Shown: positions 43,488-59,999 of the stretch, piece after piece | Layout of the letters: every line of letters starts with the position of its first letter | How positions within the stretch are numbered: position 1 is the first letter of the stretch | DNA from: an uncultured Nioella sp. | GTDB lineage: Bacteria > Pseudomonadota > Alphaproteobacteria > Rhodobacterales > Rhodobacteraceae | Assembly: GCA_947495575.1 (NCBI GenBank) | Contig: CANLZL010000003.1 | Location: 124,001-188,000, forward strand | Direction: 5' to 3' | Length of the DNA: 64,000 bases | Notes under the pieces: generated by a model | Database searches by the model: none | The model's input: only the letters and a program-made list of their open reading frames with translations | Told to the model about the DNA's origin: nothing | Made by a program: the position numbers and the translations under genes

Positions 43488-43499
43488 CACAATCTACCC

Positions 43500-44579
43500 T
43501 TAGTCCATCCGCAATGTACGAGTGGTTTCCGTGTCAAACAGGTGAATTTCGCCTGGCTCTGGAATGACCGAAATGGTCTGGCCCAGTTCGACGTCTGTTT
43601 GCCCCGGCAAATGCAATGTCATAGCGCTGCCGCCTCCCAGGCTGCCATACAGGTAGCTTTCACCGCCCAATTGCTCAACACTTCGGACAGATACCTTTAC
43701 CCCGCCATCAGCGACTTGCTGCATGTGGTTAGGTCGGATGCCAAGCGTCACCGCTTCGCCTGGGCGTTGCGCATATCCAGTGGCTGGCAAAGCCAAGGTT
43801 TCGCCGGTCTCCAGTTCCAAAACTTCGCGATTGTCCGCGGATACATTGCCAGAGATGAAATTCATCTTGGGCGATCCGATAAAGCCCGCGACAAAGATGT
43901 TGTCGGGACGGTTATAAAGATCCAGTGGGCGGCCAAACTGCTCCAGTTCACCAAGGCGCAAGACAGCGATCTTATCCGCCATAGTCATCGCCTCGACCTG
44001 ATCATGGGTCACATAGATCATGGTATTGCCCAGTCGGCGGTGCAGAGCGGCAATCTCTCCACGCATATCCACGCGCAGCTCCGCATCAAGGTTCGACAAG
44101 GGCTCATCGAAAAGAAAGACGCGCGGTTCACGGACAACCGCGCGACCGATAGCAACCCGTTGCCGCTGCCCCCCGGACAGGTCCTTTGGGCGACGATCCA
44201 AGAGCATGTCGATTTGCAGCATCTTGGCGACGCCATCGACCTTCTCATTGATCTCGGCGCGGGGCGTGTTGATGTTTTCCAACCCAAAGGAAAGGTTCTG
44301 GCGCACGGTCATATGTGGATAGAGCGCGTAGCTTTGGAACACCATCGCCAGCCCGCGATCGGCGGCAGGGATCGAGTTCACAACCTCTCCACCAATGACA
44401 ATGTCCCCATCCGTGATGGGCTCCAGTCCAGAAATCATACGCAGCAAAGTTGATTTCCCGCACCCCGACGGTCCAACAAACACGCAAAATTCGCCATGTT
44501 GGATATCAAGATCAATGCCCTTGATCACCTCGACCACGCCATAAGACTTGCGGGCCTGTTTCAGTTCGATACTTGCCAT
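43500..44579 (-). CDS. Sugar ABC transporter ATP-binding protein (MalK/UgpC type)
   Basis: A 359-residue ATPase with Walker A GPSGCGKST, signature LSGGQRQRVA, Walker B VFLFDEPLSNLD, H-loop YVTHDQ and a C-terminal TOBE domain. It is close in design to the ATPase at 18895 but is a separate copy. It powers the permeases encoded directly upstream and lies 13 bases before uxuA. Confidence 0.93.
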   Translation of the reverse strand: MASIELKQARKSYGVVEVIKGIDLDIQHGEFCVFVGPSGCGKSTLLRMISGLEPITDGDIVIGGEVVNSIPAADRGLAMVFQSYALYPHMTVRQNLSFGLENINTPRAEINEKVDGVAKMLQIDMLLDRRPKDLSGGQRQRVAIGRAVVREPRVFLFDEPLSNLDAELRVDMRGEIAALHRRLGNTMIYVTHDQVEAMTMADKIAVLRLGELEQFGRPLDLYNRPDNIFVAGFIGSPKMNFISGNVSADNREVLELETGETLALPATGYAQRPGEAVTLGIRPNHMQQVADGGVKVSVRSVEQLGGESYLYGSLGGGSAMTLHLPGQTDVELGQTISVIPEPGEIHLFDTETTRTLRMD

Positions 44580-44598
44580 ATCAATTATCCTTTCGCGC

Positions 44599-45651
44599 TT
44601 ACTTGCCGCCCGTTGAGGCGATGCCAGTGGCGATATATTTCTGCAGGAACATGAACACTGTCGCGATGGGCAGCAGCGTCAGAACAGTCATTGCCAAGAG
44701 GCTGGACCAGTCTGTCGTCAGTTCCCCTTGGAACGAGTTCAGCGCCAGTTGCAGAGTGAAGTTTTCGGTCTGGGTCAACACGATCAGTGGCCAGAGGAAG
44801 TCATTCCAGCGCCACATAATCGCAAGGATGGCCAGAACCGCGATGGCAGGTGCCGATAGCGGAATGATGATCCGCCAAAAGATCTTCCATTCGCTGGCTT
44901 TGTCCATTCGGGCCGCGTCAAGAATTTCATCCGGTATGGTGATCATGTATTGCCTGAGCAAGAACACCCCCGTCGGTGTTGCCGCCCCCGGTATGATGAC
45001 CCCCCATAAACTGTTGAACATGCCAAGTTCCGTCACGATCAGGAATAACGGCACGAGGACAACCGTCTGTGGGATCATTAGTGTTCCGACGACCAACAGC
45101 AGCACCGCCGTTCGCCCGCGAAATTCGTATTTCGATAGGGCAAAGGCCGCCATCGAATTGACCAACAACATCAAAAGCGTTGCTGTCACTGTGATGAAGG
45201 TCGAATTCCAGAAAAACCTGAGGAAGTTGAACCGTTCAAACAGCGACGTATAGTTTTCCGTCGCCAGTGAAAATTCTTCGACCGGTTCACGGTTGGCAAT
45301 GTTGACCCTTAGCCGTTCTTCCGGGTTCAGCGGATCGATCATTTGCGCCTGATTACCAACCCGACGCAGTTGCGCCAGCGTCATGCCCTCATATTCACCG
45401 GCGGTCATCACGAAAAGCGGCAGCGCGTCGTCATACCCATCAACTTCAACTGTTTGCTGTGCATAGGGCAACAATGTCGGCGGGAAGCGTTGCAGGTCGG
45501 CTTCGGTTTTGAAGCTGGACAACACCAGCCAAACAACCGGCCCGAACATCAAGAAGATACCGGTGCACAGATAGGCGTAAGACACCCAGTCAGTCCAATG
45601 CAGTCGGGTAGAGCCGCGTGTCGCGGTCAGAAAATCCCAGATCTTACCCAT
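44599..45651 (-). CDS. Sugar ABC transporter permease with an enlarged first periplasmic loop
   Basis: A 350-residue MalG-type permease. Helix 1 (YAYLCTGIFLMFGPVVWLVLSSF) is followed by about 90 periplasmic residues (about 50-135, containing GMTLAQLRRVGNQAQ and REPVEEFSLATENY) before helix 2. The usual length is about 280. The EAA loop is DAARMDKASEWKIFWRIIIPLSAP. Similar insertions occur in AglG-like permeases. It overlaps the other permease gene by 8 bases. Confidence 0.92.
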   Translation of the reverse strand: MGKIWDFLTATRGSTRLHWTDWVSYAYLCTGIFLMFGPVVWLVLSSFKTEADLQRFPPTLLPYAQQTVEVDGYDDALPLFVMTAGEYEGMTLAQLRRVGNQAQMIDPLNPEERLRVNIANREPVEEFSLATENYTSLFERFNFLRFFWNSTFITVTATLLMLLVNSMAAFALSKYEFRGRTAVLLLVVGTLMIPQTVVLVPLFLIVTELGMFNSLWGVIIPGAATPTGVFLLRQYMITIPDEILDAARMDKASEWKIFWRIIIPLSAPAIAVLAILAIMWRWNDFLWPLIVLTQTENFTLQLALNSFQGELTTDWSSLLAMTVLTLLPIATVFMFLQKYIATGIASTGGK

Positions 45652-46612
45652 CGACGTTCCTCCGGTTTACCCACAATTGAATGAGAGTGAGGATCACAAG
45701 GACAATAGCCACCAAAAGCGATGCAGCCGCAGCCAAACCAAAGAGGCGCGGTGCCCCGGCAAAGCCTTCCTCGTAGATATATTGAATGATAAATGTGGTC
45801 GCTGTGCCCGGTCCGCCACCCGTGAAGGCATAGATCTCGTCGAAGGTTTGGACCCCTTTGATCAGGGCCAGTACCAGGACAACCAACATCGTCGGGGACA
45901 AGAGTGGCAGAGTAATTCGTCGAAACGTTCTCCAAGGGCTGGCCCGGTCCATCAAGGCCGCTTCATACACATCGCGAGGGATGGCTTGCAGTCCGGCCAA
46001 TAGGATCAACGTGTAAAACCCCATATGCGCCCAGACAGAGATGAAAACGGACCATGTAAAAGCCCATTGCGCATCAACCAGCCAGTTATAGCCCCCGATG
46101 CCAGTCCAATCGAGGAACGCGTTCAACACGCCTTCGCGCTGCAAAATCCACTTCCAGATCAGCGCAACCACGACGGGCGACAACAAAACCGGAAAGAAAA
46201 ACACCGAGCGGAAGAACCCGCGAGCCCGAATTTTTCCGTTCAAAATAATGGCCGTCAGCAAGGCAAACCCGACCATCGCGCCAACCTGCAAAGTCACGAA
46301 CCATGTCGTGTTCCAAACGGCGCGCCAGAATTTGTCTTCGCGGCAGGAGTTCGGATCGAGAAAGTTTTCGCAATCCGTCAACGTCACGAAATTTCTGAGG
46401 CCAACATTGGGTCGGTCTGCCAACAGGACATTATCGCCGCCTGTCATCGCGTATGACACATTCAAAATAACGGGCAGAAACGCGAACAAGCCGAATAGAA
46501 TAAGGTTGGGCAGCAAAAACACCCAAGCCAGTTTGTTAATCCCGAGGAGACGCTGAAGCGCCAGCATCGGAACCTCAACGATCCGCATGATCGGTGACAA
46601 TATTTGTAGCAT
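45644..46612 (-). CDS. Sugar ABC transporter permease (MalF type)
   Basis: A 322-residue CUT1 permease with six or more helices and the EAA loop YEAALMDRASPWRTFRRITLPLLSP. A periplasmic segment with CENFLDPNSCREDKFW carries two cysteines that could pair. It follows the binding-protein gene after a gap holding a hairpin. Confidence 0.92.
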   Translation of the reverse strand: MLQILSPIMRIVEVPMLALQRLLGINKLAWVFLLPNLILFGLFAFLPVILNVSYAMTGGDNVLLADRPNVGLRNFVTLTDCENFLDPNSCREDKFWRAVWNTTWFVTLQVGAMVGFALLTAIILNGKIRARGFFRSVFFFPVLLSPVVVALIWKWILQREGVLNAFLDWTGIGGYNWLVDAQWAFTWSVFISVWAHMGFYTLILLAGLQAIPRDVYEAALMDRASPWRTFRRITLPLLSPTMLVVLVLALIKGVQTFDEIYAFTGGGPGTATTFIIQYIYEEGFAGAPRLFGLAAAASLLVAIVLVILTLIQLWVNRRNVDG

Positions 46613-46643
46613 GGACCCCTCCCTGCCCTTGCGAATTGCCCCC

Positions 46644-46659
46644 CGCGCGTCGATGCGCG
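46644..46659 (-). promoter_or_regulatory. Intercistronic hairpin after the uronate-locus binding-protein gene
   Basis: A 5-bp GC stem (CGCGC at 46644-46648, GCGCG at 46655-46659) extended by a CCC/GGG pairing across a bulge, 26 bases after the stop codon. Weaker than the other three hairpins of this kind. Confidence 0.45.
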
Positions 46660-46684
46660 AGGGACAGTCTTTGATTGGAAGTGC

Positions 46685-47956
46685 TTAGTTGGCTTCAGCC
46701 ATTGCAGCAGCAAGATCAGATGCCGCGCGCTCCATGGCTTCTTCCACGGTCAGCTCGCCAACGATGGCTTGGCTCAAACGCTCAACCGTGATGCCGAACA
46801 TTGCACGGTTGCCTGGGTAGCCCTGGTAGGCAAAGGCAATCGGAGATACGTCAGGCAAAGCACCAGCAAAACCGTTCAGCGCACCTTGTGCGCCGGCCGA
46901 TACGCCTTCGTAGTCAACGCCCGCTGCCGCTACACCAAGGTGTGCAGGCAGGTTACGGGTGCGTGCGGTGGCTTCGGCATAGATGTCTTCCTGTGCAAGG
47001 AAGTCGATGATCGCCGCGACAATCTCGGGATGTTCAGTGTCGCTGAACCCTACGATGCCAGCGCCGCCGGGCATGCCGGAACAGGCACCTGCAGGACCAC
47101 AAGGGCTGTCTACAACTTGCCAGTCGAAGAAGTCACCGATGTTCTCTTCCATGCGGCCAACCTGCCACGAACCGGAATAGTAGAACACAAGTTCACCATT
47201 GATGAACTCCTGTGCCGCATCCTGATAGGTTGCACCGCCCTGACCGGCCCAAACGTCACGCGCAAAGGTGCCGTCATTGTTCCACTCAACGAATTGTTCG
47301 ACATAGGCGGTAAAGCCGTCGTCCACCAACATCGCGTTGCCATCCGCATCGAAGAGCTGCGCGCCGTAGGAAATTGCGGGGCCCGCCACACGGTGGCCGG
47401 ACCGGTCAATCGCCATTGGGAAATCTGTGCCGGTTGCTTCTGCAACCGCACGAGAGGCCGCTGCCCAATCTTCCCAGGTTGCGCCTTCGCCCGGCATTTC
47501 AACACCGGCCTGCTCAAACAGCGTCGCATTGACGAATGGGCCGGTGATAGTCAGCTGGCTGTGCATGCCGTTGATTGCATCGCCACCATCCGGGCCACGA
47601 TACCAGCTCAGCGTGTCGCCAAAGCTGGATTCCCAATAATCGCGATCCACATAGGGCGCGAGGTCGAGGTAATATTCGCTAAGACCGCCAAGGTCGGTCA
47701 CTTTGGCGATGTCAGGGCCGTTGCCGGAAGCCAACTGAACCGGCAAGTTCTCAAGGATGGCCTGGTAGGGCACAATGTCGACGATCACGTCAACGCCGGG
47801 GTTGTCTGCTTCAAAGCGTGTCAGCAGGTCTTCATACACTTCGCATTCATTGCCGTCCGTCGAGCACATGAACCGAATTTCCTGCGCCGAAGCCATACCG
47901 GCCGAAAGGCCAAGCACGCTTGCAAGAGCAGTGGTCATTAATACTTTATTGGTCAT
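46685..47956 (-). CDS. Sugar ABC transporter substrate-binding protein
   Basis: A 423-residue periplasmic protein with signal peptide MTNKVLMTTALASVLGLSAGMASA, then QEIRFMCSTDGNECEVYEDL. It belongs to solute-binding family 1. Two cysteine pairs are visible in the mature part (CSTDGNEC; CGPAGAC). ATG 47956 is chosen because GGGAGGA precedes it. It lies 43 bases after a Gfo/Idh/MocA gene. The ligand is probably a glucuronide or other acidic sugar, inferred from uxuA in the same unit. Confidence 0.92.
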   Translation of the reverse strand: MTNKVLMTTALASVLGLSAGMASAQEIRFMCSTDGNECEVYEDLLTRFEADNPGVDVIVDIVPYQAILENLPVQLASGNGPDIAKVTDLGGLSEYYLDLAPYVDRDYWESSFGDTLSWYRGPDGGDAINGMHSQLTITGPFVNATLFEQAGVEMPGEGATWEDWAAASRAVAEATGTDFPMAIDRSGHRVAGPAISYGAQLFDADGNAMLVDDGFTAYVEQFVEWNNDGTFARDVWAGQGGATYQDAAQEFINGELVFYYSGSWQVGRMEENIGDFFDWQVVDSPCGPAGACSGMPGGAGIVGFSDTEHPEIVAAIIDFLAQEDIYAEATARTRNLPAHLGVAAAGVDYEGVSAGAQGALNGFAGALPDVSPIAFAYQGYPGNRAMFGITVERLSQAIVGELTVEEAMERAASDLAAAMAEAN

Positions 47957-47999
47957 TTTGGGTCTCCTCCCTAAAGGTCCTATTTCCGTCTTTTCATAA

Positions 48000-49064
48000 T
48001 CAGGCGACATCAGGCATCCAGCCCGCATAAAGCGCTGATCCTTTTTGCAATGGCAGTCTTATATCGCTGCCTTCGCGCGCCGATCGGTAGATCGCTGTCA
48101 CCAGCTCGATTGACCGGCGCCCGTCCTTCAATGTCACTTCGCGTCCACCTTTGCCCTCCAATGCATCGGCAACCGCGTTTAGATACCCGGCAAAGCCGGA
48201 TTTCACCTCTGGCACGTTGGCCAAAATCGCATCGACCTGCGATTGCGTGACAGGCGCGCGGGCGGTGAAGGTCCACTCGTCCTCAGCCGGTGTATAGGGG
48301 GCCGAGCCGCTTTCTGCGGAGAGCCCCTCGAAACAGAATCTGAGGCGGCTGGAATCATCACCAGAGCCGAGCGTAACACAGCTTGTCGCTAACGCACCGT
48401 TTTCCATGCGGAAGCTCAGGGCGGCGCAATCTTCGGTTTCAATCTCGTTCACCCGGACATCCGTACGCGCAAAAACCGAGGCAACCGGCCCAAGAAATCT
48501 GGTCAACAAGTCATGCGAATGGATGGCATGGCCCAGAAGCGCCCCGCCAGACTCACCCGACCATGTCCCGCGCCACGGAATGGCATAATAATCCGCATCG
48601 CGATTCCAATGGGTTTCCAGGCTGGCCACGTAGGGCTTTCCTGTCAGGCCTGCATCGATCAAAGCATGTAACTTGGCGGTCGCCGGACCGTAACGATACT
48701 GAAAAACCGGGAACACATTCTTTCCGGTCTGTTCTGCTGCAGCCTCCAGCGCATCGGCCTCTTCCAGTGATCGCACGATCGGTTTTTCGCAGATCACGTG
48801 CTTTCCAGCTTCAAGCGCCATCAGAGAGACCGAGAAATGTAGATGCGGCGGCAGGCAAACGTCGATAAGATCGATCTCGGGATCGGCTAATACGGCTTCC
48901 AAGTCATTGGAGATTGAAATGCTCGGATCATCCCCAATGGCCGCTCGTGCACGGTCCGTGTCTAACTCGCAAAACGTCGAAACTGCAAAACGGTTTGGCA
49001 GGGCGCGATACCCTTTTAAATGCTCGGCCCCGATGCCGGCACCTATGATCGCCACGCGGATCAT
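48000..49064 (-). CDS. Gfo/Idh/MocA family oxidoreductase (third of three)
   Basis: A 354-residue NAD(P)-dependent oxidoreductase. Rossmann start VAIIGAGIGAEHLKGY, the EKP motif in VICEKPIVRSLEEA, and the substrate-side segment GGALLGHAIHSHDLLTRFLG with paired histidines. Such proteins oxidise sugars or, in some families, cleave glycosides by a transient-oxidation mechanism. It overlaps the next Gfo gene by 4 bases. Confidence 0.9.
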   Translation of the reverse strand: MIRVAIIGAGIGAEHLKGYRALPNRFAVSTFCELDTDRARAAIGDDPSISISNDLEAVLADPEIDLIDVCLPPHLHFSVSLMALEAGKHVICEKPIVRSLEEADALEAAAEQTGKNVFPVFQYRYGPATAKLHALIDAGLTGKPYVASLETHWNRDADYYAIPWRGTWSGESGGALLGHAIHSHDLLTRFLGPVASVFARTDVRVNEIETEDCAALSFRMENGALATSCVTLGSGDDSSRLRFCFEGLSAESGSAPYTPAEDEWTFTARAPVTQSQVDAILANVPEVKSGFAGYLNAVADALEGKGGREVTLKDGRRSIELVTAIYRSAREGSDIRLPLQKGSALYAGWMPDVA

Positions 49065-50071
49065 GCGCGCGCCTCAGCCATTGCCTGTGCCTCTAAGGCC
49101 AATTCGCAAACTTTGAACGCATGCGCCTGTGTCATCGCTGTCTCGGTGCGGTTGCGGATGTCGTCAATCAAGCGTCCAAAATAGGGAAGGCCAGCATCTG
49201 AGGCGTCGATGCGTTCGCAGCGATCACCCGTCACAAGGATCAGGTGATCTGTCCCCTCATGACCAAAATCGCAATATTTGCGTAGCTCGATATAGCCTTC
49301 AGTGCCCAGGATCGTCAGCCGCCCGTCGCCCCAAGTGGGCAGGGCATCGGGTGTGTACCAATCAACGCGGATATATCCGTGACCCTGATCGCTGCGAAGC
49401 GCGACCTCGCCAAAATCCTGCAATCCAGGATCATCAGAGTTGGCATAATTGGCAACGCTGGCCATGCAGATCTCAGCGTCGGCCGAACCTGTGAAATAGA
49501 GGAACTGGTCGATCTGATGGCTGGCAATATCTGTGATGATGCCGCCGTAGGCTTCACGATCAAAAAACCAATCAGGTCTCGACGCGCGGTTTAGCCGATG
49601 AGGCCCCAAACCAACAGTTTGCACCACTTTGCCAATGGTCCCGTTTGCAACCAAATCTGAGGCTAAGGTGACTGCTGGAACCTCAAACCGCTCTGAAAAA
49701 TCGACCGACCAAATGCGCCCAGTGCGTGCCACACATTCTTTAATCGCGTTCAGCTGATCTTGCGTCGTGCAGCCAGGTTTGTCCGTCATCACGTCCTTGC
49801 CCGCCTCCATTGCCCGCAAGGCCCAGGCCGCCCGATCCTTTGGGATGCCGGATAACAAAATCAGTTCAATGGATGCATCACCCAATAATTCGTCGGCTGA
49901 ACTGGCTTTAAGCACATCAGGGAAGCGTTTGGTAAAGCCGTCTTCGGTATTGGGGGCACCCTCAGTCCACCACCCAGCAAACTGGGCCCCGGCATCTATC
50001 ATGTTCTGTGCCATGCCAAAGATATGGCGGTGGTCGATGCCAATGGCAGCGAATTTCAATGGGGCACTCAT
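49061..50071 (-). CDS. Gfo/Idh/MocA family oxidoreductase (second of three), atypical cofactor loop
   Basis: A 336-residue protein. The N-terminal loop reads FAAIGIDHRHIFGMAQ, without the usual GxGxxG, and the motif after strand 4 is TDKPGCTTQDQ in place of EKP. The catalytic-side segment is GGIITDIASHQIDQFLYFTG. The deviations mark a distinct subfamily. It overlaps both neighbouring Gfo genes by 4 bases. Confidence 0.87.
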   Translation of the reverse strand: MSAPLKFAAIGIDHRHIFGMAQNMIDAGAQFAGWWTEGAPNTEDGFTKRFPDVLKASSADELLGDASIELILLSGIPKDRAAWALRAMEAGKDVMTDKPGCTTQDQLNAIKECVARTGRIWSVDFSERFEVPAVTLASDLVANGTIGKVVQTVGLGPHRLNRASRPDWFFDREAYGGIITDIASHQIDQFLYFTGSADAEICMASVANYANSDDPGLQDFGEVALRSDQGHGYIRVDWYTPDALPTWGDGRLTILGTEGYIELRKYCDFGHEGTDHLILVTGDRCERIDASDAGLPYFGRLIDDIRNRTETAMTQAHAFKVCELALEAQAMAEARA

Positions 50072-51108
50072 AAAGGCAACTCCTGAACCGAACCAGTATT
50101 TGCTGCACGGGTTATGGCATCAATCAGATCATGAGCGGGCAATGCCGCCTCTCCGGGAATGGCCGGGGCGCGGCCCGTCGTCAGGGCGTTCGAAAAATCC
50201 TCGATCACGCTTTGGTGCCACGCATAGGTGAAAGCCATCGGATCAGCCCCGCCTCCGGTAGCCGCATCCTCGCCCAAAACCTCTTCTCGTCCATCGCGCC
50301 AGGTGATCTGCAGCTTGCCAGATTCCAGATGAAGGCTGGCATCATCAAAATGCAGAGTGATAGATTCCGCGGATCCGGGAAAACTTGCAGTGCTTGCTGT
50401 CAGCGATCCAATGGCCCCGGAAGTGAATTCCAAACCAGCAACAACGAAATCTTCAGCCTCCATTTGGTGAAACCGCGTCGTCTTTGCCATCGCGCGAACG
50501 GATTTGACTGTTCCTGTCAGACTAAGCGCGAGGTCAATTGTGTGGATCGCCTGCGAGATCAATACGCCGCCTCCGTCGCGGCCATAGGTGCCACGCCCCG
50601 GTTCGTCATAATAGGCTTGCTCACGCCACCAGGGCACCGCAATCTCAGCTAAGCCGAGCGGCCCGAAAGAGTGCGAGGCGACGAGTTTCGCAGCGGCCAA
50701 TGACGCCGCACGCATCCTGTGCTGAAAGACGATACCCAGCCGGACGTTGGCGTCTTGGCAGATTTGAATCACCTCTCTCGCCTCATCTGCGTTCCGCCCG
50801 ACAGGTTTTTCCAAAAGGATGTGCTTTCCAGCTTCGGCCAAGGGGCGAACGATATCTGCGCGGGCATTGGGTGGCGTCAGAACAATCGCGAAATCCACGC
50901 CGGGATCGGCTGCTACCTCTGCCAAGTCAGAATAAACTCGCAACCGACGGTCGGTGACTTCGCTGGCCAAGGCCTCGGCGCGGTGACCGCTGCGCGACTG
51001 AATTCCAATCAGGTCCGTGTTCGATGCTTCCAGGCAGGCCGCAACATGAGTTCGGGCAACCATGCCCGCACCAATCAACACAGCCGTTTTCGGTCTGGTT
51101 TGAGTCAT
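50068..51108 (-). CDS. Gfo/Idh/MocA family oxidoreductase (first of three)
   Basis: A 346-residue protein: VLIGAGMVARTHVAA cofactor loop, LLEKPVGRNADEA, and GRDGGGVLISQAIHTIDLALSLTG near the active site. It is the first gene of an eight-gene minus-strand unit (three Gfo proteins, binding protein, two permeases, ATPase, uxuA) that starts at the GntR operator region. Confidence 0.9.
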   Translation of the reverse strand: MTQTRPKTAVLIGAGMVARTHVAACLEASNTDLIGIQSRSGHRAEALASEVTDRRLRVYSDLAEVAADPGVDFAIVLTPPNARADIVRPLAEAGKHILLEKPVGRNADEAREVIQICQDANVRLGIVFQHRMRAASLAAAKLVASHSFGPLGLAEIAVPWWREQAYYDEPGRGTYGRDGGGVLISQAIHTIDLALSLTGTVKSVRAMAKTTRFHQMEAEDFVVAGLEFTSGAIGSLTASTASFPGSAESITLHFDDASLHLESGKLQITWRDGREEVLGEDAATGGGADPMAFTYAWHQSVIEDFSNALTTGRAPAIPGEAALPAHDLIDAITRAANTGSVQELPL

Positions 51109-51148
51109 ACCCTACCTGAACTCCTCCCAAGTTGCCCCCATCAGACAT

Positions 51149-51162
51149 ACCGGTATACCGGT
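51149..51162. promoter_or_regulatory. GntR (UxuR-like) operator O1
   Basis: ACCGGTATACCGGT is a perfect 14-base palindrome with the GGTATACC core typical of FCD-type GntR regulators such as UxuR/ExuR. It lies between the divergent Gfo and gntR genes. Confidence 0.75.
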
Positions 51163-51179
51163 TGTCAACTTAATTACAT

Positions 51180-51192
51180 ACCGGTATACAGG
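51180..51192. promoter_or_regulatory. GntR (UxuR-like) operator O2
   Basis: ACCGGTATACAGG repeats O1 with one mismatch, 31 bases away (three helical turns). A further TATACCG half-site is at 51195-51201. Confidence 0.7.
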
Positions 51193-51226
51193 AATATACC
51201 GACATCCCTGCGAAGGAGCCTTTGAC

Positions 51227-51943
51227 GTGAACCGCAAAACGCCTGCCCTTGATGCAGCGGCGATGCCTGTCCCGCCATTGGACCTAAACAGGCCCGCGGC
51301 CGAGCAGATTTTCACGTCTCTAAAAGCCGCGATTCTATCGACCCGTTTGACGCCCGGGCGCATGATTTCGGAAAACGAGGTTGGGCAGTTATTTGGAGCT
51401 AGTCGAACACCGGTACGAGAGGCCTTTTCGCTGCTTCGTGAAGACGGGTTGCTGATCACCCGTCCAAGCCGTGGCACATATGTGTCAAAGCTGTCGGAAA
51501 AGCAGATCCGCGGAGCCCAGTTTTTGCGGGAAGCGCTGGAAGTTTCCGTTGTCGAACGGCTTTGCCTAGAGGGGCTGAAGGACATCCACCGGACGCGTCT
51601 GGTCAAGGCGCTCGAGTTGCAAAAACGGGCAATGCAGGCGGGAGACACCTCTGCATTTCAGGAGCAAGACGACCGGTTCCATGCCATCTTGGCCGACGCC
51701 ACCGGTTTTGAGCGCATAGAAAATCTTCTGATAAAAGAAAAGTCCGTACTCGATCGCTTACGTGTCCTGTCGCTTGATGACACTAACCAGATGGAGCAAC
51801 TGTTCAGTGAGCACACTGGTATATTTGAAGCCATCGAAAACGGCTATTCCGGGCAGGCCGTCGATCGGATCAAGCGCCACCTTCGGCGCGTTCTGAAAAC
51901 ACTGTCGCAACTGATTGAGGCCAATCAGGACTATTTTGAATAA
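51227..51943 (+). CDS. GntR family (FCD) regulator of glucuronate catabolism
   Basis: A 238-residue regulator. Winged helix (ISENEVGQLFGASRTPVREAFSLL and TRPSRGTYVSKLS, seen here in part) and a C-terminal FCD domain with conserved metal-site residues (EQDDRFHAIL, EHTGIFEAIENG). The start is GTG 51227 with AAGGAG 8 bases upstream. Position before uxaC-uxuB and the GTATAC operators make it the functional counterpart of UxuR/ExuR. It likely responds to fructuronate or a related uronate. Confidence 0.9.
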   Translation: MNRKTPALDAAAMPVPPLDLNRPAAEQIFTSLKAAILSTRLTPGRMISENEVGQLFGASRTPVREAFSLLREDGLLITRPSRGTYVSKLSEKQIRGAQFLREALEVSVVERLCLEGLKDIHRTRLVKALELQKRAMQAGDTSAFQEQDDRFHAILADATGFERIENLLIKEKSVLDRLRVLSLDDTNQMEQLFSEHTGIFEAIENGYSGQAVDRIKRHLRRVLKTLSQLIEANQDYFE

Positions 51944-51959
51944 GCCCCCGGAGGCCAAT

Positions 51960-53339
51960 GTGACCCACTTGCCACCGCAAGCCCAAGCGATCTATGAAAC
52001 TGTCCAGGGGTTATCGATCATCTCACCCCACGGGCATTGCGACCCGAGCTGGTGGGCAGATGATTTGCCCTTTCCTGACCCCGCAGAATTACTGATTATT
52101 CCCGATCACTATGTTTTTCGGATGCTGTATTCACAGGGTATTCCGCTTCAAAAGCTGGGTGTTGGTGTTGCTCGGCAAGACCGGAATCCACGCGAGATTT
52201 TCCGGCTATTTGCATCCAATTGGCACTTGTTCTTAGGCACACCCAGCCGGGGCTGGCTTAACCATACATTTCGGAACTTGCTTGAAATAGAAACACCCCT
52301 GTGTGCGGACACATCCGATGCTATATTCGATCAGATTTGCCAGAAGATCCAATCACCCGATTTTCGGCCACGTGCTCTATTTGACCGGATGAACATTGAC
52401 GTGCTCGCCACTACGGATGCTGCGACCGACCAATTGAGCACCCATTCGGCGATCCATGCTTCAGGCTGGACGGGCCGCATCATTCCAACATTTCGACCCG
52501 ATGATATCTTGAATCCCGCGCGCCCCTCCTACGCATCAAGCTTGCAAGAATTGGCTGAGCAAACCGGCGAAGACGTAACTGAGTACGCCGCCTTCCTGCG
52601 TGCGATCTCAAAACGGAGGGAGTTTTTCCGGCAAATGGGGGCCACCGCGACCGATCACGACGTTCCGATCCCCATTACAAATTGGTTGAGCAAAAGCGAA
52701 ATCAACGACCTGCATGCCCGGGCCTCTCTCGGTACTCTGAACGAAGATGAGTGCACTCGTTATTACGGTCACTTGCTGATTGAGATGGCCCAAATGGCCG
52801 CTGATGATGGAATGGTGATGCAAATCCATGCGGGTAGCCGTCGAAACACGAACCCGGCATTAATGAGCCAGTTCGGGCCGGACATGGGTGCTGACATCCC
52901 ATTGGCTGTGAATTGGGTTGACGGTCTTCAGGATTTGTTGGCGCGTGTCGGTAATGATCCGAAACTGCAAATCCTGCTGTTCACGTTAGATGAAAGCACT
53001 TACGCCCGTGAATTGGCACCGATGGCAGGCCATTGGCCATGCCTAAGGATCGGACCACCCTGGTGGTTTCATGACAGCCTAAATGGAATGCGCCGTTACT
53101 TTGACAACGTGGTCGAAACGGCCGGGTATTTCAACCTGGCCGGGTTCAATGATGACACGCGGGCATTCCTGTCGATACCCGCCCGCCACGACACGTGGCG
53201 CCGCGCCGTGTCGATTCACTTGGCGGATCAGATCGAACGTGGCGCAATGGTTCAATCCGATGCCCTGCGACTTGCTCCCTACCTCTGCCGCGATCAGGCC
53301 ATTGATGCCTACCGACTGCCCGGCGAAAGGTCGGCGTGA
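51960..53339 (+). CDS. uxaC: Uronate isomerase (glucuronate isomerase)
   Basis: A 459-residue metal-dependent isomerase of the amidohydrolase superfamily. Metal motif ISPHGHCDPSWWADD, followed by FDRMNIDVLATTDAATD, MQIHAGSRRNTNP and the late GPPWWFHDSLNGMRRY. GTG 51960 is chosen because GGAGG lies 5 bases before it; the frame extends back into gntR. It converts D-glucuronate to D-fructuronate. It follows gntR by 16 bases and overlaps uxuB by 1 base. Confidence 0.94.
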   Translation: MTHLPPQAQAIYETVQGLSIISPHGHCDPSWWADDLPFPDPAELLIIPDHYVFRMLYSQGIPLQKLGVGVARQDRNPREIFRLFASNWHLFLGTPSRGWLNHTFRNLLEIETPLCADTSDAIFDQICQKIQSPDFRPRALFDRMNIDVLATTDAATDQLSTHSAIHASGWTGRIIPTFRPDDILNPARPSYASSLQELAEQTGEDVTEYAAFLRAISKRREFFRQMGATATDHDVPIPITNWLSKSEINDLHARASLGTLNEDECTRYYGHLLIEMAQMAADDGMVMQIHAGSRRNTNPALMSQFGPDMGADIPLAVNWVDGLQDLLARVGNDPKLQILLFTLDESTYARELAPMAGHWPCLRIGPPWWFHDSLNGMRRYFDNVVETAGYFNLAGFNDDTRAFLSIPARHDTWRRAVSIHLADQIERGAMVQSDALRLAPYLCRDQAIDAYRLPGERSA

Positions 53340-54616
53340 TGCCACGTATCCTTCACCTTGGCCTAGGCAACTTCCACCGCGCCCATCAGGCCGCTTATAC
53401 GGCGAATGCTGGTGGCGGTTGGAATATCACTGGCGTTGCAATGCGTAACCGGCGTTTGCGTGATCAGATGCAAGCGACCGACGGACACTATGGTCTTGGC
53501 ATCCGCAGCGTCGATGGCCTGAATGTTCAGGATATTTCGGTTCACGACCGGGTTCTGCTTGCCTCTGAGGATCCACAGTTGGTGATCGATGGCTTCGCGG
53601 ATCTTGATCTGCATATCGTGACCATGACTGTCACTGAAAAGGGCTATTTCCTGAACGCAGCCGGCACAGGCCTGAACCTCTCTGCCCCAGAAATCGCCGC
53701 AGACCTAGAGGGCAGACCGGCCAAAACGGCTGTCTGCATGTTGGCAAAAGGCTTGGCAAAAAGGGCGCAGGCCGGTGCGCAACCGTTAACAATCATCAGT
53801 TGTGACAATCTGTCTGGCAACGGGACAAAGCTGCACAGGGCTGTTGTGGATTTCGGAACAGCAGCAGGCCTTTTTGATGCGCCAGATATCGCGCCTTGGA
53901 CATCATTTCCCAACACAATGGTCGACCGCATAACGCCGGCAACCACGCCTGACGTGGTCGCTGAAATTGAGGGCCACACTGGCACGCACGCCCCTAACGC
54001 GGTCCTGACGGAAGAATTTTCCGAATGGATCATCGAGGATGATTTCGCCGGTCCTCACCCAGATTGGCAAACTGCAGGCGCCGAATTTGTGAAGGATGTG
54101 GAACCCTATGAACTGAGAAAACTGCGCTTTTTGAATGCCGCCCATTCTTATCTAGCCTATGCCGGATCCATTAAGGGCCACACCTACGTGCATGAGGCAA
54201 TTGAAGACCCAGAACTTCGGCAAGGTGTCGAGCGTTTGTGGGACGATGCCGCCGCAACGGTGCCGGTCGAGATTGAAGCGACCTTGACAGACTATCGGGC
54301 GGCCTTGATTAATCGGTTTTCAGTTCCGGAGATGCGGCACGAGCTGGCCCAGATTGCCATGGATGGCAGTCTGAAACTCACAGAACGGATTGTTCCCATC
54401 ATTTTGGCAAATTGTCAGGCTGGCCGCCCGTCTCCTGGGGCTGAGGCCGCATTTGATGCATGGGTGCGCTATGTCAAAGACGCATCTGCAAAGGGCGACG
54501 CTATTGCCGACGCACAGGCCGACCGACTGCAATATCTTCTAGAAGAATTAGATAGCAGCACAGCGAACGAGGCGTTGGCCGACCTTGTCGGCCTATCCGA
54601 TGGCGACAGGGCCTAA
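53339..54616 (+). CDS. uxuB: Fructuronate reductase (mannitol dehydrogenase family)
   Basis: A 425-residue long-chain dehydrogenase. Start MPRILHLGLGNFHRAHQAAYT, TVTEKGYF, SCDNLSGNG, FPNTMVDRITP and the catalytic Lys region KLRFLNAAHSYLAYAG. It reduces D-fructuronate to D-mannonate with NADH. Together with UxaC and UxuA it gives a complete route from D-glucuronate to 2-keto-3-deoxygluconate. The uxaC stop overlaps its ATG (TGATG). Its stop overlaps that of the convergent hydrolase gene. Confidence 0.94.
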   Translation: MPRILHLGLGNFHRAHQAAYTANAGGGWNITGVAMRNRRLRDQMQATDGHYGLGIRSVDGLNVQDISVHDRVLLASEDPQLVIDGFADLDLHIVTMTVTEKGYFLNAAGTGLNLSAPEIAADLEGRPAKTAVCMLAKGLAKRAQAGAQPLTIISCDNLSGNGTKLHRAVVDFGTAAGLFDAPDIAPWTSFPNTMVDRITPATTPDVVAEIEGHTGTHAPNAVLTEEFSEWIIEDDFAGPHPDWQTAGAEFVKDVEPYELRKLRFLNAAHSYLAYAGSIKGHTYVHEAIEDPELRQGVERLWDDAAATVPVEIEATLTDYRAALINRFSVPEMRHELAQIAMDGSLKLTERIVPIILANCQAGRPSPGAEAAFDAWVRYVKDASAKGDAIADAQADRLQYLLEELDSSTANEALADLVGLSDGDRA

Positions 54617-55512
54617 GCGTCCACCAACCCTTGCTGCAAAAACGACAAGACGGCCTGTCGCATTTCTGGCGTTTCGCGGTGATCAAGTTCGGAATCAACA
54701 AAGAACGACAATTGATCGCTTGCCTCGGCCTTTGCAAAAGCCGTTTCGAGATCTTTCCGTCCTATCTCAAAGGCCGATGCTGGCGTGGACCAATCCTGAA
54801 GACCCGCACAGATCATCAAAGCCCGAGGTGCTGCAAGCCCGGCAATTTCGCCGGTGCTGTATTTGGCAACTAGACCCGGGACCGTCATGTAGTGACCGTG
54901 CCCATCATGAGCACGCAGATCAATGAGGGTTTTCAGGTCTGCAAACGAGCACAGCGCTGCCGCCGCCTTCACGCGCGGATCAAGTGCAGCCAGCCACCAG
55001 GCATGCGTGGAGCCCATCGAAAAACCCAATGCGCCAAGGCGGTTAGCGTCAATCACATCATAGCCTGAAAGAAACCCAAGGGCCTGCTGCAATTCACTCA
55101 GCATTTGCCCAAAGAGCGTTTTCCCATGCCAGGCTAGAGTTTTGCTTAGTTCGCTCTCGACAGGTGTCTGCCGGCCACCAAAGCATGGCATATCCAGACA
55201 CAAGGACGCACAGCCTAAAGATTTCAGCGCGGGCCCATATGGCCCTTGCAGCGAACTGCGGCCCTCGGTCAACTCCGTGCGACCCATCTGGTATCGATTG
55301 CCATGCGCATGACAATAAATCACCGCCGGGACTTTGGCGTGCCCCGGTGCAGGCCGCAAGAACCGAGCGGGGATATGATCGCCCCCGGAGGTAAAGAAGG
55401 TCAGATCGCTTTGAAGCCAATCCTCAAATTGAGATGAATCGCCATCCTGAACATCAACGAATTGAGATTCCGGGAACGTCCCGCCTAGAAGTGCCTGTAG
55501 GTCGTCCCGCAT
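54613..55512 (-). CDS. Alpha/beta hydrolase (dienelactone-hydrolase / acetyl-xylan-esterase-like)
   Basis: A 299-residue cytoplasmic hydrolase. Nucleophile Ser in LGFSMGSTHAWWL, a catalytic Asp expected in CAGLQDWSTP and the His in DSELDHRETPEM; the oxyanion region is CHAHGNRYQMG. It lies 22 bases downstream of smoA and probably belongs to the smo operon, where it could deacylate a sulfolipid-derived compound or open a lactone. That role is inference. Confidence 0.82.
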   Translation of the reverse strand: MRDDLQALLGGTFPESQFVDVQDGDSSQFEDWLQSDLTFFTSGGDHIPARFLRPAPGHAKVPAVIYCHAHGNRYQMGRTELTEGRSSLQGPYGPALKSLGCASLCLDMPCFGGRQTPVESELSKTLAWHGKTLFGQMLSELQQALGFLSGYDVIDANRLGALGFSMGSTHAWWLAALDPRVKAAAALCSFADLKTLIDLRAHDGHGHYMTVPGLVAKYSTGEIAGLAAPRALMICAGLQDWSTPASAFEIGRKDLETAFAKAEASDQLSFFVDSELDHRETPEMRQAVLSFLQQGLVDA

Positions 55513-55534: not shown

Positions 55535-56047
55535 TCAGCCTGCGGCGGCAAAATTTCCGAACTGGCCGCCGAAGAAGAGCAGTGGCGTGCCTTGCCGAAC
55601 CGAAGCCCGCAAAACACGTGCGACGATGATCGCATGATCTCCGCCGTCATATTCGGCATAGCGTTCACATTCGAACCGTGCAAGGCAGCCGTCGATCAGC
55701 GGTGCGCCTGTTTCGCCCTCGCCCCATTCGGCCGCGTCAAACGCGTGGGGGGAGGCTGCAAAAGCCCGGCAAAGAGGCATCTGTTCTTCAGCGAGAATGT
55801 GAATGGCCATATGCTCCGCCTCTGAAAAAAACGGAAACCGGCGTGACGTTTTTGACGCTGACCATAGGACAAGCGGCGGGTCCAGTGAGACTGAGGAAAA
55901 ACTATTCGCAGTGATGCCCACGGGACCGGCATCAGTCTGAGTTGAGACGATCGTCACACCCGTTCCAAACCGCGACAACGCCCCGCGCAGTTCGCGCGCC
56001 ATTTCGGGACCCGGACAAAAATGTTCCATCGGATTGGCCATGGTCAT
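55535..56047 (-). CDS. smoA: Flavin reductase for sulfoquinovose monooxygenase
   Basis: A 170-residue HpaC-like flavin reductase: ALSRFGTGVTIVSTQ, VGITANSFSSVSLDPPLVLWS, and a C-terminal GTPLLFFGGQFGNF. It supplies reduced FMN to the monooxygenase encoded two genes upstream. It overlaps the aldo-keto reductase gene by 4 bases. The trio flavin reductase / aldo-keto reductase / alkanesulfonate-type monooxygenase matches the sulfo-SMO pathway of Agrobacterium. Confidence 0.85.
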   Translation of the reverse strand: MTMANPMEHFCPGPEMARELRGALSRFGTGVTIVSTQTDAGPVGITANSFSSVSLDPPLVLWSASKTSRRFPFFSEAEHMAIHILAEEQMPLCRAFAASPHAFDAAEWGEGETGAPLIDGCLARFECERYAEYDGGDHAIIVARVLRASVRQGTPLLFFGGQFGNFAAAG

Positions 56048-56940
56048 GGAACCTCGTGCCCCTGTGCTGCGGTCAGGATCTCGAACCAGCTTTCGCGATC
56101 AAGCTCAACTTTGGACGCGTCCGAGATTCTGGCAATACGATCAAGGTTGTTTGTTCCCATGACAGGCGCCAGTTTTGCCGGATGGGCCAGCAACCATGCC
56201 ACCGCCACAGCCGTTGCATCGACGCCTTGCGCTTTGCCGATACGGTCAAGAGCGTCGCGAACGGCGGCACCTTCTGCGCCAAACAATCGCCCGCCCCCTA
56301 ATGGAGACCAAGCCATGGGCCGGATCGCCTTTTCCTGCATCCACTGGATGTCGCCCTCAATGAATGGGGCGTAATTCAGAACACTGGCCTCGATCTGGTT
56401 GGTGCAGAGAGGTGTCGACATCGCCGATTGCAAGAGGTTCCAATCATGGAATTTGAAATTCGATACCCCGACCGAGCGCACCTTGCCCGACGCAACCAAC
56501 CCGTCTAACGCTTTGCCGGTTTCCTCGTGATCCATGAAAGGATCTGGGCGATGAACCAACAAAAGATCAATCCGATCGGTGGCCATGTTGGTCAGTGAGG
56601 CCTCAACGGACGCGGTGATGTGAGCGGCAGATGTATCGTAGTACTTTAACCGCTTGTCAGAATATTTCCCGATCGGAGCCACGATATCGCATTTGGTAAC
56701 GATCTCAATCTGTTCACGCAGCGCAGGTGCGGCCTTCAACGCGCCCCCCAAAACAGCCTCGGCACCATAGTCGCCATAAATATCGGCCTGATCCATCGTC
56801 GTAATGCCTTGGGCAAGGCAGGCTTCAATCTTGGACTGCACATAGGCGGGCGAGGTGTCGGAATCGTCAGCCACTCGCCACATCCCATAGACAAGGCGGC
56901 TGATTTCCAACTGGCCGGAAAGGGACAAACGGTCGGTCAT
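56044..56940 (-). CDS. smoB: Aldo-keto reductase (6-oxo-glucose reductase)
   Basis: A 298-residue AKR with RLVYGMWRVADDSDTSPAYV near the start, catalytic Asp/Tyr in TTMDQADIYGDYGAE, Lys in EIVTKCDIV and the LLLVHRPDPFMD segment. In the sulfo-SMO pathway this enzyme reduces 6-oxo-glucose, formed on desulfonation, to glucose. It overlaps smoC and smoA by 4 bases each. Confidence 0.85.
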   Translation of the reverse strand: MTDRLSLSGQLEISRLVYGMWRVADDSDTSPAYVQSKIEACLAQGITTMDQADIYGDYGAEAVLGGALKAAPALREQIEIVTKCDIVAPIGKYSDKRLKYYDTSAAHITASVEASLTNMATDRIDLLLVHRPDPFMDHEETGKALDGLVASGKVRSVGVSNFKFHDWNLLQSAMSTPLCTNQIEASVLNYAPFIEGDIQWMQEKAIRPMAWSPLGGGRLFGAEGAAVRDALDRIGKAQGVDATAVAVAWLLAHPAKLAPVMGTNNLDRIARISDASKVELDRESWFEILTAAQGHEVP

Positions 56941-58091
56941 TTACGTTCTCCTGCGCCAAGCGGGGTCATCGGGGTTTCAGCCGGAACACGTCCGTATTCA
57001 TGTGGCAACGAGCAGGTTTTCAGATGCGGCATGACCTTTTCACCGAAATGCTTGCACTCGTCCAAATGCGGATAACCTGAGAAGATGAAGGCGCGCATAC
57101 CCATCTTCTTATACTCTTCGATCTTTGACATAACCTGATCGACCGATCCGACAAGGGCCGCGCCGCAGCCTGACCGTGCCCGGCCAATTCCAGTCCAGAG
57201 GTTTGGCTCAACATATCCGAATTTGTCGGCAAGCTCGCGTGCGCGGGCCTGGTGCGAGACGCCCAGGGAGATGGAGTCATGCGCCCGCTCACGGATGAGC
57301 TTGCCATACTCGTCATCCAATTTGCTGACGAGGTAATCTGCGTATTCGCGGGCCTCTGCTTCGGTATCGCGCACGATCATATGAACACGCAAACCATAAT
57401 CGAGGGTCCGGCCATACCGCTCGGCCACGGCATTCACCGCCTTCATGCGTTCGGCTAGGTTTTCTTTAGGTTCGGGCCACATCAGGTAAACGTCGCAATG
57501 TTGTCCGCAAAGTTCCAATGCGGCTGGCGAATAGCCCCCGAAATAAAGCAGCGGCCCGCCAGTTTGATAAGGGCGCGAAGGGTCGGTCGTCAGACCCTCG
57601 AAATTGTAAACCTCGCCATTGTAGTTGATCTCATCCTGCGTCCACGCTTGCTTGAGAATTTCGACAACTTCGCGAGATCGCTGATAGCGTTGGCTGCTAT
57701 CGGCCACCTCTCCGGGGAAGTCGGACGAAATGATATTGACCGTCAGGCGACCCTTAAGCATGTGATCGAGCGTCGCAATAGTGCGTGCCAGCATGATGGG
57801 CTGCATTTCACCACAACGCACAGCGGCCAGCATGTTGATCTTTTCCGTGATCGGCGCACAGCCTGCGACAAAGCTGAGTGTATCCTGACCCACCTGATAG
57901 GAGGATGGGCAGAGGATGTTCCGAAACCCCTGCTTTTCGGCTTCCTTCAGAATGCCCGAACAATGATCCCAAGAGGACCGCAAGTCACCGTCCGGCACGC
58001 CCAGAAACTGGTAATCGTCGGAACACAGCGCGGCGAACCACGACACCTCGGCTGCATCCAGATCCTGGGACGTAATGGGGACAACTGACAT
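56937..58091 (-). CDS. smoC: FMNH2-dependent sulfoquinovose monooxygenase (SsuD-like, LLM class)
   Basis: A 384-residue luciferase-like monooxygenase close to alkanesulfonate monooxygenase SsuD. Segments: FRNILCPSSYQVGQDTLSF, GRLTVNIISSDFPGE, QRYQRSREVVEIL and the mobile-loop GIGRARSGCGAALVGS. ATG 58091 with GGGAGGA upstream is preferred to a start at 58190. It cleaves the C-S bond of sulfoquinovose using O2 and reduced FMN, giving sulfite and 6-oxo-glucose. It is first in smoC-smoB-smoA-hydrolase. Without the neighbours one could only call it SsuD-like. Confidence 0.87.
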   Translation of the reverse strand: MSVVPITSQDLDAAEVSWFAALCSDDYQFLGVPDGDLRSSWDHCSGILKEAEKQGFRNILCPSSYQVGQDTLSFVAGCAPITEKINMLAAVRCGEMQPIMLARTIATLDHMLKGRLTVNIISSDFPGEVADSSQRYQRSREVVEILKQAWTQDEINYNGEVYNFEGLTTDPSRPYQTGGPLLYFGGYSPAALELCGQHCDVYLMWPEPKENLAERMKAVNAVAERYGRTLDYGLRVHMIVRDTEAEAREYADYLVSKLDDEYGKLIRERAHDSISLGVSHQARARELADKFGYVEPNLWTGIGRARSGCGAALVGSVDQVMSKIEEYKKMGMRAFIFSGYPHLDECKHFGEKVMPHLKTCSLPHEYGRVPAETPMTPLGAGERK

Positions 58092-58152
58092 GCGGGTTCC
58101 TCCCTGTTGGACCGCTGAATTTTTCTCTTGCCTAGCACTCCGAAAAAGGTAA

Positions 58153-58176
58153 ATCAATGATGTATCAATTTTTGAT
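58153..58176. promoter_or_regulatory. Candidate operator in the smoC-gntR gap
   Basis: Overlapping dyads: TGATGTATCA (58158-58167) and ATCAATTTTTGAT (58164-58176), with another ATCA at 58153. The element lies 13 bases before the gntR start in a 97-base divergent gap, the expected place for a HutC-type GntR site. Confidence 0.5.
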
Positions 58177-58188
58177 GCGCGAACAAAC

Positions 58189-58899
58189 ATGACCCAAGAA
58201 CAGCCCTCTGGGGCGCTGCCAATTTATCTACAAGTCAGCGAGATGCTGATCCGCGACATCGCTGCCGGGACCTTGGTCGATGGCAGCCGCTTGCCACCCG
58301 AACGTGACATGGCGAAGTCCCTTGACATCTCTGTCGGCACTTTGCGTAAGTCATTGGCAGAACTTGAGAAACGTGGCCTTTTGGATCGTCGGCAAGGGTC
58401 CGGGAATTACATTCGCGCAACCCAGTCTCCAGAAGGGATATATGCCTTTTTCAGGCTGGAACTGGTCAACGGAACCGGCCTGCCCACAGCGCAGGTTCTA
58501 GATGTGACGCGGATGAAAAAGCCCGATCACCTTCCGCAATTTGGTAGATCAATTGATGCACATAGGATTCGACGGATCCGATTCCTCGACAAAACTCCAG
58601 CCGCAGTGGAAGAGATCTGGCTTGATGGCTCTTACGCCAAAACTTTGACGGCTGGGGAATTGTCCGAGTCGCTCTACCTGCACTACCGCGAGGCTCTCGA
58701 CCTGTGGATCACCGGCTTCGATGACAGCGTGGGTGTGGCCCCCTGCCCGGATTGGGCCCCCATCGAATTCGGCGTCACGCCTGGCGCAGCCTGCGGAATA
58801 GTCGAGCGCCACAGCCGCGCCCGGGACGGCGCAATTGCAGAAGTTTCCCGCAACTGGTTTGACAGTAACGTCGCACGCTATGTCGCGCGCATGAGGTAA
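58189..58899 (+). CDS. GntR family (HutC/UTRA) regulator of the smo cluster
   Basis: A 236-residue regulator: GntR winged helix (ALPIYLQVSEMLIRDIAAG, LPPERDMAKSLDISVGTLRKSL in two parts, RRQGSGNYI) and a UTRA effector domain (about residues 95-232, with RIRRIRFLDKTPAAVEEIWLD). It is divergent from smoC and overlaps the Gfo gene by 1 base (TAATG). No clear ribosome site precedes the ATG, so the message may be leaderless or weakly translated. The effector is likely sulfoquinovose or a derivative; this is inference. Confidence 0.87.
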   Translation: MTQEQPSGALPIYLQVSEMLIRDIAAGTLVDGSRLPPERDMAKSLDISVGTLRKSLAELEKRGLLDRRQGSGNYIRATQSPEGIYAFFRLELVNGTGLPTAQVLDVTRMKKPDHLPQFGRSIDAHRIRRIRFLDKTPAAVEEIWLDGSYAKTLTAGELSESLYLHYREALDLWITGFDDSVGVAPCPDWAPIEFGVTPGAACGIVERHSRARDGAIAEVSRNWFDSNVARYVARMR

Positions 58900-59999
58900 T
58901 GAGAACAATGACAGACACGCTCAAATACGGCATCATTGGCTGCGGCATGATGGGGCAAGAACACATCCGCAACATTGCTTTGCTGGACAATGCCGAAGTG
59001 GCAGCAATCTATGAACCCGATGCAGGAATGAGGTCTGAAGCGGCGCAGCTTGCACCGCAGGCGCGGTTCGCAGACAGTATTGGTGACCTGCTGGCAACAG
59101 CAGATATCAATGCTTTGCTGATCGTTTCCCCCAACTATTGCCATGTTGACCAGTTGGAAGAAATCGCCCGCACCCGGCCCCTTCCAATTCTTATAGAAAA
59201 ACCCCTCTATACCGATCCCAATGATGAAGCGCGGGTTGAAGCTCTTAATCAGTCTTATCCGCAACTTATGTGGGTCGCGATGGAATACCGTTATATGCCA
59301 CCGATTGCCGCCTTCCTTGAAATGGCCAAAGAGGTGACCGGTGGCATCCGGATGTTGACCATCCGCGAACACCGGTTCCCCTTTCTGGTTAAAGTCGGGG
59401 ACTGGAACCGGTTCAACAAAAACACCGGCGGTACGCTGGTCGAAAAATGCTGCCACTTCTTTGATTTGATGCGGCTGACGATCGGAGCGGAACCTGTGCG
59501 CGTTATGGCTTCGGCTGCCCAGGATGTGAACCATCTTGACGAAACCTATGACGGAATGGCGTCCGATATATGGGACAATGCCTATGTCATTGTCGATTTT
59601 GACAATGGCGCCCGCGCGATGCTGGAACTCTGCATGTTTGCCGATGGGTCAAAATACCAAGAAGAAGTCTCGGCGGTTGGCGCAAAAGGAAAGATTGAGG
59701 CGCTTGTCCCTGGTCCGTGGCGCATCCGGCCAGAAGAATTTGGCGAACAGCCCGTACCAAAACTGATCGTTAGTCCGCGCGCCCCCCAAGGCCCCAAGGA
59801 AATTGACATTCCTGTGGATCCCGCGCTTTTGCAAGCAGGCGACCACAATGGATCAACTTTCTACCAGCATCAGCTATTTGCCCAAGCCATCAGAGCGGGC
59901 GGTCGGCCCGCTGTCTCCATGCAAGACGGCGCGATAGCGGTGCGCATGGGGATGGCAGCCCAGGAATCCGCCCGAACCGGTAAGGCGGTATTGCTTTAA
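58899..59999 (+). CDS. Gfo/Idh/MocA family oxidoreductase beside smoABC (possible NAD-dependent sulfoquinovosidase)
   Basis: A 366-residue protein; ATG 58908 is an alternative start. It has YGIIGCGMMGQEHIRN, LIEKPLYTDPNDEAR and the distinctive REHRFPFLVKVGDWNRF followed by TGGTLVEKCCHFFDLMRL. Known Gfo/Idh/MocA proteins include simple sugar dehydrogenases and NAD-dependent glycosidases, and an NAD-dependent sulfoquinovosidase family of this fold has been reported from sulfoquinovose gene clusters. No classical GH31 sulfoquinovosidase is present in the window. That makes a glycosidase role attractive, but it is not shown by the sequence alone. Confidence 0.85.
   Translation: MRTMTDTLKYGIIGCGMMGQEHIRNIALLDNAEVAAIYEPDAGMRSEAAQLAPQARFADSIGDLLATADINALLIVSPNYCHVDQLEEIARTRPLPILIEKPLYTDPNDEARVEALNQSYPQLMWVAMEYRYMPPIAAFLEMAKEVTGGIRMLTIREHRFPFLVKVGDWNRFNKNTGGTLVEKCCHFFDLMRLTIGAEPVRVMASAAQDVNHLDETYDGMASDIWDNAYVIVDFDNGARAMLELCMFADGSKYQEEVSAVGAKGKIEALVPGPWRIRPEEFGEQPVPKLIVSPRAPQGPKEIDIPVDPALLQAGDHNGSTFYQHQLFAQAIRAGGRPAVSMQDGAIAVRMGMAAQESARTGKAVLL

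Follow-up and report, generated by a model that had tools for sequence, protein, structure and literature searches.

Sulfoquinovose (SQ) is a sulfosugar of plants and algae, and the locus described here raises the question of how a bacterium that has no GH31 sulfoquinovosidase (SQase) could open sugars derived from sulfolipids. The initial annotation had proposed that a Gfo/Idh/MocA protein encoded at 58899-59999, here called SqgA, is the missing enzyme. We examined this proposal in the window (the whole stretch of 64,000 nucleotides that was analysed), in the 3.68 Mb genome that contains it, and in 199 genomes of the same family.

The sulfo-SMO cluster and the search for GH31 enzymes

The proposal presupposes a real smo cluster that has no GH31 SQase, and both parts of this premise held. 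The genes concerned are as follows:

56937..58091, minus strand: smoC, SQ monooxygenase (7oh2/7olf, 722-724 bits from ORF residue 34 onward)
56044..56940, minus strand: smoB, 6-dehydroglucose reductase of the aldo/keto reductase family (7bby/7bbz, 436 bits)
55535..56047, minus strand: smoA, flavin reductase (PF01613)
54613..55512, minus strand: alpha/beta hydrolase (AXE1/DLH-like, by Pfam), directly behind smoA
58189..58899, plus strand: GntR/UTRA regulator gene (Pfam GntR and UTRA), abutting sqgA (TAATG)
58899..59999, plus strand: sqgA, putative GH188 NAD+-dependent sulfoquinovosidase of the Gfo/Idh/MocA fold (PDB phmmer search, SQ-contact residues, AlphaFold model, tree)

The SQ monooxygenase, flavin reductase and 6-dehydroglucose reductase of a sulfo-SMO cluster are found together, in adjacent genes. 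The matched chains 7oh2/7olf and 7bby/7bbz carry generic names in the search output, and we take them to be sulfo-SMO enzymes. The smoC reading frame stays open to 58190, with the true start at about 58091, and smoCBA is transcribed divergently from the GntR gene and sqgA. The hydrolase behind smoA, which occurs at the same place mainly in the close subclade, is possibly an ester-cleaving accessory enzyme that might deacylate a sulfolipid or a sugar ester.

Searches with the GH31 model PF01055 and with PF13802, the model of the GH31 N-terminal domain, found no match in the window or elsewhere in its genome, which measures 3.68 Mb in 26 contigs and is listed as 100% complete; a search of the same genome with E. 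coli YihQ (E ≤ 1e-20) returned no GH31 match. Of 14 control genomes, 6 gave matches in the two Pfam searches. The initial annotation had named a GH31 SQase encoded elsewhere in the genome as grounds against its own proposal; such a protein was looked for and not found, and the sqgA product itself has no GH31 catalytic domain.

Across the 199 same-family genomes, a YihQ-type GH31 protein (44% identity, with R301, W304 and Y508 kept) was present in one, which has neither SmoC nor SqgA; ten others encode distant GH31 proteins only. The distant proteins were not accepted as SQases: their identity to YihQ is mostly 25-30% in alignments that cover part of the sequence (35-41% in two shorter segments), and in those that align, W304 and Y508, two of the sulfonate-binding positions of YihQ, are replaced. 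In one genome (G217) a GH31 protein is encoded between smoA and the hexuronate genes (L102:11299-13731). It has neither W304 nor Y508, and judging from these positions is probably not an SQase.

Identity, active site and predicted fold of SqgA

The open frame at 58899-59999 encodes 366 aa, matches the Pfam models GFO_IDH_MocA and GFO_IDH_MocA_C, and overlaps the stop codon of the regulator gene by one base. The true start is probably the ATG at 58908, since the best Shine-Dalgarno sequence (GAGG, 58893-58896) suits this codon better and most homologues begin there; the product would then have 363 aa.

When all PDB sequences were searched with phmmer, the closest solved chains were SQases throughout: 8zn9 with 534 bits, 8qc2 (FlSqgA) with 355 and 8qc3 (ArSqgA) with 347, followed among Gfo/Idh/MocA relatives by an inositol dehydrogenase with 60 bits. 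Identity amounts to 66% with 8zn9 over the full length, 48% with FlSqgA and 47% with ArSqgA. The GH188 SqgA structures published by Kaur et al. (2023; PMC10755693) are those of the 8QC entries; an NAD-dependent SQase family of this fold has indeed been described recently, as the initial annotation stated. The title of entry 8zn9 is "A vast marine sulfonate-based carbon cycle fueled by novel sulfoquinovosidases"; the entry probably belongs to the work of Ma et al. (2025, Nat Commun), which PMC13372026 cites.

In a tree built with LG+G4, the protein groups with 8zn9, FlSqgA and ArSqgA, apart from other Gfo/Idh/MocA proteins (98/99). Its nearest neighbours are from Nioella, and the adjoining branch is the group that holds 8zn9 and Roseobacter sequences. 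An earlier mixture-model tree that included distant Gfo proteins had saturated outgroup branches. The genome encodes a single SqgA, its next best Gfo protein being 28% identical over part of its length.

The contacts to SQ described for ArSqgA (Kaur et al., 2023; PMC10755693) could be located as follows:

59367..59393, plus strand: sulfonate-binding loop EHRFPFLVK, residues 157-165 (R159, L163 backbone, K165), by alignment to ArSqgA R166, L170 and K172
59442..59456, plus strand: EKCCH, residues 182-186, with E182 (C4-OH contact) and H186 (C3-OH contact, catalytic), by alignment to ArSqgA E189 and H193
59844..59846, plus strand: H316 (C1-OH contact), equivalent of ArSqgA H321

Every one of these contacts is identical in the PDB alignment. 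The sulfonate-binding triad of ArSqgA, Arg166, the Leu170 backbone and Lys172, corresponds to R159, L163 and K165, and its sugar and catalytic contacts Lys107, Tyr136, Glu189, His193 and His321 correspond to K101, Y130, E182, H186 and H316 (PMC10755693). None of them varies in a GH188 alignment of 15 sequences with identities as low as about 47%. In a wider set, all 137 SqgA-like sequences retain R159, L163, K165, E182, H186 and the other contact positions as far as H186, and H316 is retained in all 124 that reach it. For the sulfonate residues of GH188, a conservation of 96-98% has been described, along with a variant that has Tyr at position 170 (PMC11465081); our protein carries the common Leu there. 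One position disagrees: the catalytic residue printed as Glu163 of ArSqgA (PMC10755693) aligns at Val163, the next residue, 164, being Glu; every other position agrees exactly. The likely cause is a shift of one in the numbering, and Glu157 of our protein stands at the Glu163/164 position.

The initial annotation had assigned REHRFPFLVKVGDWNRF (residues 156-172) and EKCCHFFDLMRL (residues 182-193) to the substrate side. Both segments are present; between them they contain the sulfonate loop with E157, R159, L163 and K165 as well as E182 and H186, which contact the sugar. The sulfonate-binding residues that it suggested looking for by alignment and model comparison with SqgA proteins are found at R159, L163 and K165.

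The AlphaFold2 model, obtained with a 37-sequence alignment, has a mean pLDDT of 92.6 and a pTM of 0.91; with no alignment, the pLDDT was only 38. The two-domain Rossmann and alpha/beta fold of SqgA is recovered, as the model superposes on 8zn9, 8qc2, 8qc8, 8qc6, 8qc5 and 8qc3 with Z-scores of about 49-53 and an rmsd of 1.3-1.7 Å over 359-362 residues. The best scores are 52.9 for 8zn9 (1.3 Å) and 50.5 for 8qc2, compared with at most 36.7 for other Gfo/Idh/MocA structures.

The reaction, mechanism and substrate can be proposed by analogy with characterised homologues; the activity-tested ones described in the literature we used are just 47-48% identical to the protein studied here. Bound NAD+ would transiently oxidise a sulfoquinovoside, for instance sulfoquinovosyl glycerol, at C3, upon which removal of the C2 proton and elimination would release the aglycone; water would then add, and reduction of the C3 ketone would yield free SQ, NAD+ not being consumed overall. 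The sulfonate would be held by R159, K165 and the L163 backbone, and the sugar lined by K101, H186, Y130, E182 and H316. Free SQ would pass to SmoC, which would desulfonate it with flavin from SmoA, and SmoB would convert the resulting 6-dehydroglucose to glucose.

Linkage, regulation and import

SqgA occurs in 104 of the 199 same-family genomes, SmoC in 86 and both in 84 (Fisher p of about 1e-33, a value that ignores kinship between genomes). In 79 of the 84, smoC, the GntR gene and sqgA have the same order as here, with smoC and sqgA divergent within 2 kb; the median gap between these two is 780 bp, the room of a GntR gene. Of 80 named loci, 79 have the GntR gene together with sqgA and 78 have it together with smoC. 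Two genomes have SmoC without SqgA (G117, locus L099; G191, locus L100), and no GH31 SQase was found there either; these bacteria may use free SQ only, or some other SQase. Relatives of SqgA at 45-56% identity were also seen in SmoC-free genomes (L103, L104 and 15 other genomes), two examples adjoining other transporter and oxidoreductase-type ORFs, and these probably serve a different SQ pathway.

Taken together, the sequence, the fold, the active-site and sulfonate-site residues and the conserved linkage to smoCBA with the same regulator support the proposal of the initial annotation and indicate, with a probability that we put at about 95%, that the gene encodes a GH188 SqgA, an NAD+-dependent sulfoquinovosidase. 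Alternatively, the protein may be a GH188 enzyme whose main substrate is not SQ-glycerol but another sulfosugar or SQ glycoside, for example a sulfofucoside or a beta-linked SQ glycoside. GH188 enzymes do cut both anomers (PMC10755693), and catabolism of sulfosugars other than SQ has been reported (PMC12421959). However, the gene is linked to an SQ monooxygenase, and E182, which makes the C4-OH contact, is unchanged, as are all other SQ contacts, leaving this alternative only a slim chance. Still less probable is an ordinary Gfo/Idh/MocA sugar or inositol dehydrogenase adjoining smo by chance: such enzymes share the fold, and generic models such as that of myo-inositol dehydrogenase do match, though weakly (102.7 bits against a cut-off of 355), but identity to other Gfo/Idh/MocA proteins is at most 28% compared with 47-66% to SQases, R159 and K165 are mostly missing from the genome's other Gfo proteins, and sqgA is linked to smoC across dozens of genera.

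Expression of sqgA is probably tied to that of the regulator gene through cotranscription and translational coupling. Two further features bear on regulation and uptake:

58149..58169, plus strand: operator-like tandem repeat GTAAATCAATGATGTATCAAT, in the intergenic region of smoC and the GntR gene, where other genera have it as well
44599..48028, minus strand: candidate SQ/SQ-glyceride importer, with an ABC sugar-binding protein at 46685-48028 and permeases at 45644-46612 and 44599-45651

The general form of the repeat across many genera is GTA(G/A)ATCAATnnTGTATCAAT. Under the strict pattern, 70 of the 80 named loci have a match on the expected strand, and in 69 of these its position is also the expected one; 0.01 matches would be expected by chance in the window. 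The site at 58149-58169 is the sole exact one in the genome, and one further match has 3 mismatches. Most simply, it would be the operator of the GntR protein, and its conservation suggests that the regulator probably controls both divergent units through it. Part of this conservation could be due to a promoter. A small literature search found no published description of the repeat.

A TRAP transporter (DctP/DctM) lies beside smoA in 51 of the 80 named loci, but the genome studied here has no close relative of the smo-type TRAP (best 27%). A relative of the ABC sugar-binding protein occurs in 10 of the 80 loci, none of which has the smo-type TRAP. In Rhabdonatronobacter (L132) and Roseibaca (L166) the operator repeat is followed by smoC-smoB and then immediately by the ABC genes. 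Given the missing TRAP relative, the lack of the smo-type TRAP in the ten loci and the gene order in these two genera, SQ or SQ-glycerol probably enters through an ABC importer in this subclade. A solved SQ-binding protein was considered as a match for the sugar-binding protein and rejected, there being no close PDB match, so its link to SQ comes from gene context.

A complete hexuronate route lies beside smo (42303-54616), comprising UxuA (42303-43490), UxaC (51915-53339) and a UxuB-like reductase (53336-54616). The region also holds a GntR/FCD regulator and three tandem Gfo/Idh/MocA proteins (48000-51108), two of which match the glucuronide-3-dehydrogenase 8tdi weakly (65-68 bits). A second oxidoreductive route, for glucuronides, is possible beside smo. 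More speculatively, the SQ regulon of the Nioella-like subclade might be wired differently as a whole: GntR/UTRA and a single tandem-repeat operator would control sqgA and smoCBA, an ABC importer shared with the adjoining hexuronate operon (three Gfo/Idh/MocA proteins, UxaC, UxuB-like reductase and UxuA) would replace the TRAP transporter, and the two operons would act together on head groups of glycerolipids, SQ-glycerol and glucuronosyl-glycerol. We regard this combined picture as rather unlikely.

Relation to known systems

SqgA would fill an apparent gap in the cluster, and the enzyme itself is unsurprising to a specialist. The operator repeat, and the ABC importer in place of the usual TRAP importer of the subclade's relatives, are possibly new side points; the conserved motif and the candidate importer could be used to define an SQ regulon.

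The SqgA proteins of Flavobacterium sp. K172 and Arthrobacter sp. U41 (8qc2, 8qc8, 8qc3, 8qc5 and 8qc6) have the same fold, NAD site and SQ/sulfonate contacts at 47-48% identity. They were found via an Arthrobacter sulfo-EMP cluster, whereas sqgA here belongs to a sulfo-SMO cluster that includes a GntR/UTRA regulator. The 8zn9 SQase groups with Roseobacter sequences and is of a different lineage (nearest named matches from Roseobacter, 72%). The GH109 alpha-N-acetylgalactosaminidase AmGH109A is likewise an NAD-dependent, metal-free oxidoreductive glycosidase of the same fold, but it is about 15% identical to SqgA, with a longer loop and no sulfonate site (PMC10755693).

A further parallel is provided by the sulfo-SMO clusters of the Roseobacter clade, which have the same content, SQ monooxygenase and GH188 with no GH31 (Kaur et al., 2023; PMC10755693). 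Many of these relatives have a TRAP transporter beside the cluster, while the subclade studied here has an ABC importer and hexuronate genes instead. Since GH188 is nearly universal in Roseobacter sulfo-SMO clusters, where GH31 is lacking (PMC10755693), the idea is less new than the initial annotation implied, and sqgA is one more case of a published rule, adding a genus-level example of the use of GH188 by sulfo-SMO bacteria of this group.
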